DNA of 64,000 nt from Streptomyces deccanensis (lineage in GTDB: Bacteria > Actinomycetota > Actinomycetes > Streptomycetales > Streptomycetaceae), in the NCBI RefSeq assembly GCF_022385335.1, contig NZ_CP092431.1, forward strand, positions 5,952,001 through 6,016,000. The letters run 5' to 3'. This document shows positions 32,050 through 36,227 of this stretch, piece after piece (the first letter of the stretch is position 1; each line of letters begins with the position of its first letter). Below the pieces are notes generated by a model, which had not been told where the DNA came from, ran no database searches, and was given only the letters and a program-made list of their open reading frames with translations. Made by a program: the position numbers and the translations under genes.

Positions 32050-33420
32050 CTACGCCATCCACCGGTCCGGCAGCGCCTCCCGGCGGCCCGTTCGGGAGCG
32101 TTCCGCCTGGGCCCGCAGCAGGGCCGCCGCCTCGTCCGCGTCGCGCAGTCGCGCCGTCACCGTCTTGTTGGCGCCGGTGTCGACGTGCACGTCGGCGAGC
32201 CGCTTGTGCCGCTTCCAGGGCCCCTGGGACAGCCGCACGCTCTGCACCTTCGCATGCGGTACGAGGTCGAGCCGGCGGCGCAGCAGCCCGTGCCGCGCCG
32301 CGAACACCTTGTCGTCGACGGCCAGCCCGTACCCCCGCCACCACCACGGCACGCACCATCGCGCGCGCCCCGGCGGCCGTACGAGCGCCGTCGCGCCCGG
32401 CACGTCCACCCCCGGCAGCACCCGCGCGATCACCGACTCGGCCACCTCACGCGGCGCGACCGGCAGCAGGACGGAGTTGGTCGAGCCCGCCACGTCCAGC
32501 TCGACCCGGACCCACCCGCGGCGCCGCCACAACAGCGGTTCGACGAGGCGCACGGTCTGCACGCGCCCGGGCGGCACCGTCTCGTGGGCCCGGTCGAGGA
32601 GCCCGTGGTCGATGCGGAGCCCGTCGGGGGAGTCGCCCACCGTCCAGTCGTACTCCGCGACGAACCGTCCCACGCTGCTCGCCCCGGCGGCGCCGAGGAG
32701 CGGCAGCGCGGTCGCGAGGACGGTCCACACGCTCTCCGTGGCGAACCACAGCACGGACGGGACGACGACCGCGGCCACCAAGGTCCCCCACGTGGCGCCG
32801 GTCAGGACGAGGGACATCGCCAGCACGCCCGCCGGGACCTTCAGCAACTGCCGTACGGGCGCCTCGCCGACCTCGTGCGCGGTGTCCGGCGCGAAACCGG
32901 CCGCGCGGGCCAGGAGTTCGGCCCGCAGCGCGCCGGCGTGCGCCTCGCCGAGATACGCCAGCTCGTCCTTCTTGTCGGTGCCGACGACATCGAGTCTGAG
33001 TTTGGCCACGCCCACGATCCGGGCCAGCAGCGGGCGGGTGACGTCGATGGCCTGAATGCGTTCGAGACGGATGTGGGCCGTGCGGCGGAACAACAGGCCC
33101 GTACGGATGCGCAGTTCGCTGTCCGTCACCGCGAAGTGGGTGAACCACCAGGTCAGGAAGCCGTAGAGAGCGGCGGCCGGGAGGAACACCGCGAGCCCGA
33201 TCAGCAGGGTCGTCGTGTCGAGCCGCAGCAGCTGCCGCTGTGCGCCGTCCGGATCGTGCACCCCCCATCCGATCAGTACGGCCACCGGTGCCCAGGCCCG
33301 CCGCAACGGCGTCACCGGATGCAGCCGATGCTCGACGACCGGCTTCTCCGCCCCCGCTCCGTCGACCCCCACCGCGTCGTCCCCCAGCGCCCCGCCCGCG
33401 TCCTGTGCCGACACCGTCAC
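32050..33420 (-). CDS. Bacterial PH-domain (bPH2/YdbT-like) membrane protein
   Basis: A 456-aa protein with paired membrane hairpins (about 56-80, 188-225 and 240-265) and repeated bacterial PH-like domains. These show as [32 protein letters not shown] (split here: start at about 92), [18 protein letters not shown] and [32 protein letters not shown]. It resembles Bacillus YdbT, whose operon confers bacteriocin tolerance; function in Streptomyces is unknown. GTG at 33420 overlaps the stop of the upstream partner (GTGA), so the two are translationally coupled. Confidence 0.85.
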
Positions 33421-33932
33421 AGCCCCGCCGATCGGGCCTCGCCCAGCTGGGTCAGGTGGTCGCGCAGGCGTTCCGCCTCGGCCGGGTCGAGGCCCGGGAT
33501 GCAGGCGTCCGTGGCGGCCGCGGCCGTGTGCAGCTGCACGCTCGCCAGGTTGAAGTGCCGCTCGACGGGACCGGAGGTCACCTCGACCAGCTGCATGCGC
33601 CCGTACGGCACCACGGTCTCCTCGCGCCAGAGCACGCCTCGGCTGATCAGCAGGTCGTCGGCCCGTTCGGCGTACCGCCACGACCGCCAGTTGCGGCCCA
33701 GCATCGACCACCCCCAGAGCAGCAGCCCCAGGGGCAGAAGCGCGAACGCCGCCCACGGCGGCCCCGCCAGCCAGCCCAGCAGGGCGGCCGTACCGGCGGT
33801 GATCGGCACCAGCCACACCACCAGCAGCAGCCGTCTCATCCGCAGCAGGCCGGGCGGCAGGCCCGTCCAGACCGGCTCGTCCTCCGCCGGTCCGGCGCCG
33901 TCCTCGAAGGTCCCCAAGCTCCCCGTCTCCAT
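33417..33932 (-). CDS. Bacterial PH-domain (bPH2/YdbS-like) membrane protein
   Basis: A 171-aa partner of the YdbT-like protein. Two adjacent membrane segments (about 33-72) are followed by a single PH-like domain with [32 protein letters not shown] and a C-terminal [22 protein letters not shown], the usual YdbS pattern. The first gene of a two-gene operon. ATG at 33932 lies 31 bp from the divergent nuoD2 start, so promoters overlap with the start region. Confidence 0.85.
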
Positions 33933-33963: not shown

Positions 33964-35124
33964 ATGACCCCCCCGACGGAGACCCGAGAGACGACGGTCG
34001 GTATCGGCGGTGCCGCCGAGAGCACGGACATGGTGCTGAACATCGGCCCGCAACATCCGTCCACGCACGGCGTGCTGCGGCTTCGGCTGGTCCTCGACGG
34101 CGAGCGCATCCAGCACGCCGAGCCGGTGATCGGCTATATGCACCGGGGCGCGGAGAAGCTCTTCGAGGCGCGTGACTACCGCCAGATCATCATGCTCGCC
34201 AACCGCCACGACTGGCTCTCCGCCTTCTCCAACGAACTCGGCGTCGTCCTCGGCGTCGAACGCATGCTCGGCATGGAGGTCCCGGAGCGCGCGGTCTGGA
34301 TGCGCACGCTCCTCGCCGAGCTGAACCGGGTCCTGAACCACCTGATGTTCCTCGGCTCGTACCCGCTGGAGCTCGGCGGCATCACCCCGGTCTTCTACGC
34401 CTTCCGGGAGCGCGAGGAGCTCCAGAACGTGATGGAGGAGATCTCCGGCGGGCGGATGCACTACATGTTCAACCGGGTGGGCGGTCTGAAGGAGGACCTG
34501 CCGGCGGGGTGGACCGCACGCGCGCGTGCGGCCGTCGCCGACGTCCGCTCCCGGATGGACGTCTTCGACGACCTGGTGCTCGGCAACGAGATCTTCCGGG
34601 GGCGTACGCGGGACGTGGGCGTCCTCACGCCGGAGACCGTGCACGCGTACGGGGTCAGCGGCCCGATCGCCCGCGCCTCCGGTGTCGACTTCGACCTGCG
34701 CCGCGACGAGCCGTACCTGGCGTACGGCGACCTCCAGGACGTCCTGCGGGTCGTCACCCGGGACGAGGGCGACTGCCTCGCCCGCTTCGAGTGCCTGCTG
34801 GAGCAGACGCACAACGCCCTCGCCCTCGCCGACGCCTGCCTGGACCGGCTGGCCGACCTCCCGCCCGGCCCCGTCAACCAGCGTCTGCCGAAGGTCCTCA
34901 AGGCCCCCGAGGGGCACACCTACGCCTGGACCGAGAACCCCCTCGGCATCAACGGCTACTACCTCGTCAGCAAGGGCGAGAAGACCCCGTACCGCCTCAA
35001 GCTCCGCTCCGCCTCGTACAACAACATCCAGGCCCTCACGGAACTGCTGCCGGGCACGCTGGTGGCCGACATGGTGGCGATCCTGGGCTCGCTGTTCTTC
35101 GTGGTGGGGGACATCGACAAGTAG
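33964..35124 (+). CDS. nuoD2: Orphan NADH-quinone oxidoreductase subunit D homologue
   Basis: A 386-aa homologue of the 49-kDa (NuoD/NDUFS2) subunit of complex I, which helps form the quinone site. Conserved motifs include [14 protein letters not shown] (about 26-39), [27 protein letters not shown] and the C-terminal LAVGDIDK-like FFVVGDIDK. It stands outside any nuo operon; the main 14-gene nuo cluster is not in this window. Its neighbour, tail-to-tail 14 bp away, is a MidA/NDUFAF7-like methyltransferase. ATG at 33964; no strong ribosome site. Confidence 0.92.
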
Positions 35125-35138
35125 GGCGGCCTGCCTTC

Positions 35139-36227
35139 CTAGTCGCGGGGCAGCGGGTTCGGGATGCCGACCGGTTGCAGCAGCCACCCGAAGTCGCCCA
35201 GGCCGCCCGGCGCGGTCAGCTCGGCGGCCTCGCCCGCGCCCGCGAGGGCCCGTACGTACGCCGCCGGGTCGCTGGTCGCCAGGGAGAGCGGTGGACGGCC
35301 GCCGGTGACACCCAGGGCGCGCAGGGCCTCCCGCTGGGTGAGCAGCCGGGCCCCCGGCAGAGCGCACGCGTCCAGTGCCACATGCGCGGTGATGTCGCAC
35401 GACCCGTCCGGGACCGGCGTGGTCTCCCGCCCGTCCCGGAACCCGGTGAGCGTCCCGAAGGGCGGCCGGGAGCCCGCCAGGTGCGCGTAGTCGACGGCGA
35501 CGGCGAGCCCCCGCTCGACGCCCGCCACGGCGGCGGCCCACGCCCGGTCCCGGGGCAGCCCGACCTCGGCCCGCAGCCCCTCCTCCGGGGCGAGCGGCCA
35601 CCACCGGCCCAGCCACTCCGCCTCGGCCCCGCCGACGGGCGCCCCGAGCGTCTCGCCGCCGTCCTCCGCCACGAGCACCAGCCGCGCCACGCCCGCCGCG
35701 TCCACCTCGACGACGTCCACGGGCACGTTGTCCAGCCACTCGTTGGCGAACAGCAGCCCGCGGATCCCCGTCGGCGGCTCGGCCGTCCACTCGATGCGGT
35801 GATCGAGACCGGGGGGCCGGTCGGCCAGTTCGACGGCGTACGCGCGCGTGCGGGACGCGACATCGGCGGGCAGCGCGTCCAGCACCCCGCCCACCAGCTC
35901 CCCGTGCCCGGCCGCCATGTCCACGAAGTCCAGCTCCCCGGGCCGCCCCAACACCTCGTCCACCCGGCACAGCAGCCGGGCCACGGCGGCGGCGAAGAGC
36001 GCGGAGGCGTGCACGGAGGTGCGAAAGTGCGCGGAGGGCCCGTCCGGCCGCAGATAGAAGCCCCCCGGCCCGTACAGCGCCTCCTCGGCCGCCGCCCGCC
36101 ACGGCCGCGCCCCCTCAGGGGAGCGGGACCCTGACGTATGCGTCTCCGCCGCGTGGGCGTGACCGGTCCCACATGACCCGCAGCCGCGAACCGACGCACC
36201 CTCCCGGACTCCTGGACGATCCCTCAT
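35139..36227 (-). CDS. MidA/NDUFAF7-like SAM-dependent methyltransferase (DUF185)
   Basis: About 362 aa. The SAM-binding motif is [19 protein letters not shown] (about 99-117); other family motifs are [23 protein letters not shown] near residue 53 and [19 protein letters not shown] around 160. The mitochondrial homologue NDUFAF7 methylates an arginine of NDUFS2, the homologue of NuoD. Here the neighbour, ending 14 bp away on the other strand, is exactly a NuoD homologue. The N-terminal about 45 residues are not conserved; start at ATG 36227 or GTG 36230, both with weak sites. Confidence 0.85.

Follow-up and report, generated by a model that had tools for sequence, protein, structure and literature searches.

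A MidA-like methyltransferase gene accompanies the Arg-type NuoD of a second complex I in Streptomyces and probably encodes a NuoD2-modifying enzyme

INTRODUCTION

Why does the second nuoD gene of Streptomyces deccanensis lie tail to tail with a gene for a putative protein methyltransferase? This arrangement is found in a stretch of 64,000 nucleotides of the genome (here called the window), where a homolog of the 49-kDa/NuoD subunit of complex I is encoded next to a homolog of MidA/NDUFAF7. A sequence-only reading of the window had proposed that the neighbor is an enzyme dedicated to the modification of NuoD2. Here we report a computational analysis of this proposal.

The characterized enzyme NDUFAF7 targets the arginine of an HRG motif in NDUFS2 (PMC3829151, PMC3750175). 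In the bovine 49-kDa subunit, the dimethylated residue is Arg85, which is part of the mapped peptide KCDPHIGLLHRGTEK (PMC3750175), and the mark on the HRG arginine is also present in human, Pichia, and Paracoccus, where it is carried by Arg65 (PMC3750175, PMC3829151). For Nqo4 of Paracoccus denitrificans, the modification of Arg65 is a symmetric dimethylation (PMC3750175). The equivalent arginine of NuoCD from Escherichia coli is unmodified, and the NuoD homolog of Thermus has Thr at the Arg85-equivalent position (PMC3750175, PMC3829151).

The same position takes part in a switch between two subunits. In Yarrowia, Arg121 of NDUFS2 is paired with Thr122 of NDUFS7, and in Thermus, Thr64 of Nqo4 is paired with Arg83 of Nqo6, such that both arginines fill the same space beside cluster N2 (PMC8042128). 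Mutants of the arginine cannot separate a role in assembly from tuning of N2 (PMC8042128). Streptomycetes are known to carry a second set of nuo genes (nuo2) that is devoid of nuoE, nuoF, and nuoG and is clustered with the exception of nuoD2 (PMC8388888, PMC3765725).

RESULTS

A short NuoD and a MidA-like protein are encoded end to end

Both genes are arranged as the sequence-only reading had described, with a short gap between convergent stop codons (Table 1). The nuoD2 product matches the Pfam profile Complex1_49kDa in two stretches (E 2e-70), with part of the profile missing, and the neighboring product matches Methyltransf_28, the MidA family (PF02636), with 57.2 bits against a cutoff of 23.3 (E 2e-15). 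Only two genes in the S. deccanensis genome match PF00346 (three rows, two of which are pieces of nuoD2), and the midA-like gene is the single match to PF02636. The main nuoD gene is located about 175 kb from nuoD2 in an operon that was followed from nuoA up to the beginning of nuoM, where the fetched stretch ends. The pair is flanked by a gene for a bacterial PH-domain protein and, at its other end, by a two-component system. The PH-domain gene (window positions 33417-33932) is divergent from nuoD2, and gene clusters c12 and c18, whose members often separate midA from nuoD2 in other families, may correspond to such PH-domain genes.

Table 1. Features of the nuoD2/midA locus, in window coordinates
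Feature	Positions	Strand	Remarks
nuoD2, 49-kDa/NuoD homolog, short form	33964..35124	+	386 aa; ATG 33964 to TAG 35124; Pfam match
GPQHPSTHG motif named by the sequence-only reading	34045..34071	+	Holds no Arg85 counterpart
Arg61 codon CGG in GYMHRGAEK	34144..34146	+	Equivalent of Arg85 in the bovine and human proteins and of Arg65 in Paracoccus; Thr in main NuoD
Trp84 codon TGG	34213..34215	+	At the position of quinone-site Tyr87 of Thermus Nqo4
Gap between convergent stop codons	35125..35138	.	14 bp
midA-like SAM-dependent methyltransferase gene (PF02636)	35139..36227	-	362 aa; ATG 36227; stop 35139
NEWLD, MidA residues 162-166	35730..35744	-	Aligned with AQEFFD of Dictyostelium MidA
SAM loop, MidA residues 101-111	35895..35927	-	Contains position 103 (D or E) and G109

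Arg61 of NuoD2 is the counterpart of the mitochondrial target

Because Arg85 falls in KCDPHIGLLHRGTEK, which matches GYMHRGAEK of NuoD2, Arg61 is its counterpart. The sequence-only reading had looked for the target just after the GPxHPxxHG motif, at Arg39 or Arg41. That segment is indeed kept, but the assignment to these residues was wrong. The main NuoD reads GYLHTGIEK at the site and has Thr in place of the arginine; therefore, only NuoD2 can be a substrate at this site in S. deccanensis. Arg61 is conserved in all 39 aligned NuoD2 proteins, and an arginine is present in each of the 80 best loci, out of 580, from a named collection. Among the matches listed, every NuoD row that lacks the arginine has Thr when read by eye.

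Other features of NuoD2 set it partly apart from its paralog. The residues around N2 that are expected of a NuoD protein (H60, R61, E64, and R81) are invariant among 20 aligned sequences. The quinone-site tyrosine that is characteristic of NuoD/49-kDa subunits is absent: Trp84 occupies this position in 39/39 aligned NuoD2 proteins, whereas the main NuoD has Tyr. The residue numbered His38 is missing in 4 of the 39, and toward the C terminus, NuoD2 lacks approximately 41 alignment columns that the main NuoD fills. NuoD2 matches membrane-bound hydrogenase (6cfw), formate hydrogenlyase (7z0s), structure 6u8y, and an NDH subunit from chloroplasts (9grx), in a single stretch in each case. These matches are in accord with NuoD2 being a shorter form of the subunit.

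The MidA-like protein retains the residues expected of a methyltransferase

A search with the single MidA-like sequence recovered Dictyostelium MidA only at E 0.04, but a profile of the MidA family matched the structure of Dictyostelium MidA/NDUFAF7 (5ztz) at E 1e-14 and the bacterial structures 4f3n and 1zkd at E 3e-29 and E 3e-19, respectively. The MidA-like protein and Dictyostelium MidA share a Pfam family at low similarity, and they also share an aligned SAM loop, an (N/Q)E..D..P motif, and a DY motif. The SAM-binding loop and the conserved E, D, and DY residues are all present, with correspondence to the Dictyostelium protein established by alignment. Among 29 NuoD2-linked MidA proteins that were read, E163, D166, D246, Y247, and T280 are invariant, position 103 is always D or E, and G109 is kept in 28. 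A structure predicted for MidA from an alignment of 16 close relatives, with the seven-beta-strand methyltransferase fold in view, was poor (mean pLDDT 35). Over the 29 loci, distances between MidA proteins and between NuoD2 proteins are correlated (r 0.73), as would be expected from shared descent alone. A 2018 paper in Cell Reports reportedly concerns a proteobacterial origin of MidA.

NuoD2 and MidA co-occur across Actinomycetes

The distribution of both genes was assessed in 196 Actinomycetes genomes, 19 of which are from the same genus (Streptomyces). Initial counts relied on PF02636 matches and on a 27-base pattern for the Arg-type NuoD motif. PF02636 was found in 71 genomes and the motif in 76, with 68 genomes having both, three MidA only, eight the motif only, and 117 neither. 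Where both were present, they were less than 10 kb apart in 64 genomes, 11 kb apart in one, and on different contigs in three. This pairing exceeds chance because 64 of the 68 genomes have the two genes within 10 kb. For the 65 pairs that share a contig, the genes are on the same strand in 49, convergent in 14 (all from the same genus), and divergent in two. The convergent order, found in 14/19 genomes of the genus as well as in the window, means that the genes do not form an operon there.

Inspection of the exceptions changed the counts modestly. Four genomes counted as having the motif only did have MidA, in two of them as a fragment where a contig ends, two with MidA only did have NuoD2, and genome G102 was rejected because its pattern match was not a NuoD. 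After 40 fetched loci had been inspected, the sets comprised 77 genomes with NuoD2 and 75 with MidA, of which 74 were shared. Profile searches of the 196 genomes were then scored with cutoffs. NuoD2 proteins had at least 388 bits, and other NuoD proteins among the matches listed had at most 244 bits; MidA was accepted at 72 bits or more, which dropped genome G004 (41.9 bits) and rows below 30 bits. The final counts were 80 genomes with NuoD2 and 77 with MidA, including 74 with both, six with NuoD2 only, and three with MidA only, whereas 113 had neither. Co-occurrence of the two genes, which had been proposed as a check of the original idea, is therefore borne out. Fisher's exact test on counts taken by eye from the tables gave p 1e-42; the species share ancestry, so the events behind this value are not independent. 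Families of mixed content nevertheless show joint absence: by eye, one family (f15) has eight genomes with both genes and ten with neither, and another (f28) has three with both and one with neither.

The same association was seen in the named collection. Of 580 loci there that carry a NuoD2 signature, the 80 best were taken, 78 of which are titled Streptomyces, and 76 of the 80 have MidA. Among these 76, the MidA gene is convergent in 59, upstream on the same strand in 16, and divergent in one. For each of the four remaining loci, the contig is short or ends nearby. A literature search that covered mainly papers available without subscription found none linking a MidA-family gene to nuoD2 in Actinobacteria.

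Exceptions to the pairing

The three genomes with MidA above the cutoff and no NuoD2 (G059, G066, and G146) all differ at D166, Y247, and T280. The changes in G059 are D166N, Y247L, and T280I, and the proteins of G066 and G146 additionally carry D103L, E163D, and D246E. MidA looks decayed where NuoD2 was not found, since the altered residues are among those invariant in 29/29 linked proteins. The contig of G059 stops soon after MidA, and NuoD2 could lie in an assembly gap. G004, which also lacks NuoD2, has its MidA-like fragment at a contig edge, where the conserved residues cannot be judged. In family f22, MidA-like proteins at two loci without NuoD2 (L196:7965-8759 and L197:8570-9394) have lost the acidic residue of the SAM loop and differ at other conserved residues; it is possible that these are pseudoenzymes.

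Conversely, six NuoD2 genomes with Arg61 (G100, G110, G120, G138, G156, and G182) gave no MidA match in the profile search. The arginine can thus persist without the enzyme, as in E. coli, which had no PF02636 match among our 14 control genomes. MidA is dispensable in some lineages, which fits the situation in E. coli and weakens any strict requirement. We also considered whether a change from HRG to HRS is a consequence of MidA loss, but this idea was dropped because G147 has HRS together with a MidA gene interrupted by a run of N.

nuoD2 supplies the D subunit that the nuo2 cluster lacks

The nuo2 cluster of S. deccanensis (G000:C1:6.232-6.243 Mb) contains nuoA2, B2, H2, I2, J2, K2, L2, M2, and N2, with letters assigned by eye and the order confirmed. 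The cluster also encodes NuoC2 (PF00329, E 5e-33), which is missing from the nuo2 gene lists in the available parts of PMC8388888 and PMC3765725. With NuoC2 and NuoD2 included, nuo2 has 11 subunits (A2, B2, C2, D2, H2, I2, J2, K2, L2, M2, and N2) and no NADH module. It has no other nuoD, because only two genes match PF00346. The sequence-only reading had called NuoD2 an orphan, which is misleading: published descriptions make it a member of nuo2 (PMC8388888, PMC3765725), and the Thr/Arg switch described below ties it to NuoB2.

NuoC2 is encoded between nuoB2 and nuoH2 (L011:9332-10842, near 6.233 Mb of G000). It was found in 11 of 11 Streptomyces clusters read and has a tail of RRxRSAxEGSASQ-like repeats. 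The core and the repeat tail are in different frames in S. deccanensis, whereas a single frame continues to approximately the start of nuoH2 in nine of ten related clusters. Tail length is very variable among ten Streptomyces nuo2 clusters (L278-L287), and the tail is probably disordered.

A korAB gene pair for a 2-oxoacid:ferredoxin oxidoreductase (identified by eye) is located about 4 kb from the nuo2 cluster, with two histidine-kinase-like genes and a regulator between them. From this gene neighborhood, nuo2 is probably fed by ferredoxin that is reduced by the nearby-encoded KorAB.

NuoD2 is matched to NuoB2 and often accompanies a minimal B2-C2-I2 module

At the switch position, NuoB1 has Arg in 17/17 proteins read (our own and those from 16 loci), whereas NuoB2 has Thr in all 20 that were readable (our own and 19 of 20 fetched; L145 has no readable frame). 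This defines matching pairs in which NuoD1 (Thr) goes with NuoB1 (Arg) and NuoD2 (Arg) goes with NuoB2 (Thr). NuoB2 retains all N2 cysteines, and both ferredoxin-type motifs are present in 18/18 NuoI2 proteins.

Orthologs of NuoH2 (at least 60% identity) were found in 49 genomes, all of which have NuoD2 and MidA. However, NuoD2 does not strictly follow nuo2, since 28 of 77 NuoD2 genomes have no NuoH2 ortholog, and none of the three further NuoD2 genomes from the later profile search is in the NuoH2 list. This H2-less class was defined by the NuoH2 search of genomes; the other membrane subunits were judged within fetched stretches. A search with NuoB2 gave at least two NuoB matches in 27 of the 28 genomes and one in G169. 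Such counts were rejected as a diagnostic because, by eye, at least two matches also occur in 12 genomes without NuoD2 and a single match occurs in three with it.

Among 18 fetched H2-less loci, 15 show B2-C2-I2 with no nuo2-type membrane genes in the stretch. Of the other three, L149 (G026) has broken H2 pieces beside B2-C2, and L144 and L161 are cut by contig ends; two further fetched loci served as controls with H2. If our own locus is included, 13 of 21 loci have korAB no more than 9 kb from nuoB2, one of them (L148) as fragments only. Of the 20 fetched loci (L142-L161), 12 have the B2-C2-I2 cluster near korAB, and in 10 the cluster comes shortly after the end of the main nuo operon. At L142:10852-14990 (G141), about 4 kb without any nuo match separate nuoC2 from nuoI2; no NuoH2 ortholog was found in this genome, and its cluster may be broken.

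DISCUSSION

The genes nuoD2 and midA probably work as a pair, because the arginine known to be methylated in mitochondria is present in the second NuoD but not in the main one. Our preferred explanation, to which we assign a probability of about 0.73, is that the MidA-like enzyme methylates Arg61 of NuoD2, the D subunit of the N-module-free nuo2 complex, beside cluster N2. A dedicated NuoD2-modifying enzyme, as first suggested from the window, is the best reading, with support from co-occurrence and from the Thr in the main NuoD. The proposed mechanism can be outlined as follows. In this scheme, nuo2 is a second complex I devoid of the NADH-oxidizing module, with NuoD2 as its D subunit, and KorAB would reduce ferredoxin, which in turn would feed nuo2. 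Before assembly, the MidA-like enzyme would transfer methyl groups from SAM to Arg61, presumably yielding a symmetric dimethylarginine. The residue would then pack against N2 in NuoB2 and help to lock NuoD2 to NuoB2. The main complex would need no methylase because Arg of NuoB1 fills this space and NuoD1 has Thr.

An unlikely explanation is that the two genes are neighbors through old, inherited gene order and that the MidA-like enzyme modifies some other substrate. The wider neighborhood is indeed common, with a panC-like cluster in 26/41 loci and a nadB-like cluster in 20/41 (names assigned by eye), and in many families other genes lie between midA and nuoD2. Because this neighborhood is shared across families, the linkage is in part inherited gene order. 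Inherited order does not explain why both genes are jointly absent within families f15 and f28, or why the three MidA proteins without NuoD2 have altered residues that are otherwise invariant. Furthermore, only NuoD2 has the known target residue of the enzyme family in S. deccanensis.

Somewhat more doubtful is the idea that MidA acts elsewhere on nuo2, either on another residue of NuoD2 or on a subunit such as NuoB2 or NuoC2. The arginine-rich repeat tail of Streptomyces NuoC2 could be seen as a candidate substrate. Nevertheless, the characterized enzyme targets the HRG arginine of NDUFS2 (PMC3829151, PMC3750175), which is invariant here. MidA also tracks NuoD2 rather than nuoH2, given that 26 of 75 MidA genomes have no NuoH2 ortholog.

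It is very unlikely that MidA methylates the main NuoD and that its position next to nuoD2 is incidental. Both proteins are NuoD homologs and the genome has one PF02636 match, but Thr stands at the Arg61 position of the main NuoD, as in all non-Arg rows among the matches listed (read by eye), and of 116 genomes without NuoD2 only three have MidA above the cutoff, all with altered conserved residues. Methylation of Arg39 or Arg41 after the GPxHPxxHG motif is hardly credible, because mapping of the 49-kDa subunit placed the modified residue in KCDPHIGLLHRGTEK (PMC3750175) and neither position is Arg in all 20 aligned NuoD2 proteins.

We also offer a broader and decidedly tentative proposal. MidA may serve a portable, ferredoxin-fed Q-module composed of NuoB2, C2, D2, and I2 that is often encoded near KorAB. 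In Streptomyces and some others, the module would have its own membrane arm. Many Actinomycetes lack NuoH2; these might attach the module to the membrane arm that serves the main complex I, or deploy it as a soluble enzyme that passes electrons from N2 to a non-quinone acceptor, which would explain the Trp in place of the quinone-site Tyr. The Thr/Arg switch, together with the methylation of Arg61, could then act as an identity key that prevents the two Q-modules of one cell from swapping subunits.

A dedicated NuoD2 methylase, a proposal that is well supported by the sequence comparisons, would be a variant of the known MidA/NDUFAF7-NuoD system. As with NDUFAF7 and Dictyostelium MidA, the likely client is a NuoD homolog with an HRG arginine. 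Unlike those systems, the Streptomyces gene lies beside one of two NuoD paralogs, of which the main one lacks the target residue, and the client complex has no NADH module. A bacterial precedent is Nqo4 of P. denitrificans, a NuoD protein whose homologous arginine is symmetrically dimethylated (PMC3750175). In that case the mark is on the Nqo4 of its complex I, whereas the Streptomyces mark would be on a second NuoD that belongs to a complex with no NADH module.

Other comparisons concern the complex itself. The 11-subunit NuoABCDHIJKLMN enzyme of Desulfitobacterium, for which ferredoxin is the proposed donor (PMC11238625), has the same subunits as nuo2 with NuoC2 and NuoD2 and likewise lacks NuoEFG. 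In contrast to that enzyme, the Streptomyces D subunit is encoded apart, beside a methylase gene, and has Trp at the quinone Tyr, and many relatives of Streptomyces show only B2-C2-I2 together. The main Streptomyces complex resembles that of Thermus thermophilus (Thr in NuoD and Arg in NuoB), whereas NuoD2 and NuoB2 have the opposite arrangement, as in Yarrowia (PMC8042128). KorAB of Mycobacterium tuberculosis is a two-gene 2-oxoacid:ferredoxin oxidoreductase that is widespread in Actinobacteria (PMC2773412). The korAB genes near nuo2, identified by eye, look alike, and the available part of PMC2773412 makes no link to nuo genes.

If our preferred explanation is correct, then one cell would hold a complex that should be methylated and another that cannot be methylated at this site, together with a single candidate enzyme, and the system would carry its own internal control. 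It would also offer a rule for other phyla, in which a genome with an intact MidA would be expected to have an Arg-type NuoD and, as its partner, a Thr-type NuoB. More generally, these findings suggest that electrons can enter respiration by a second route, free of the N-module and with its genes near those for KorAB, in a large group of antibiotic producers.
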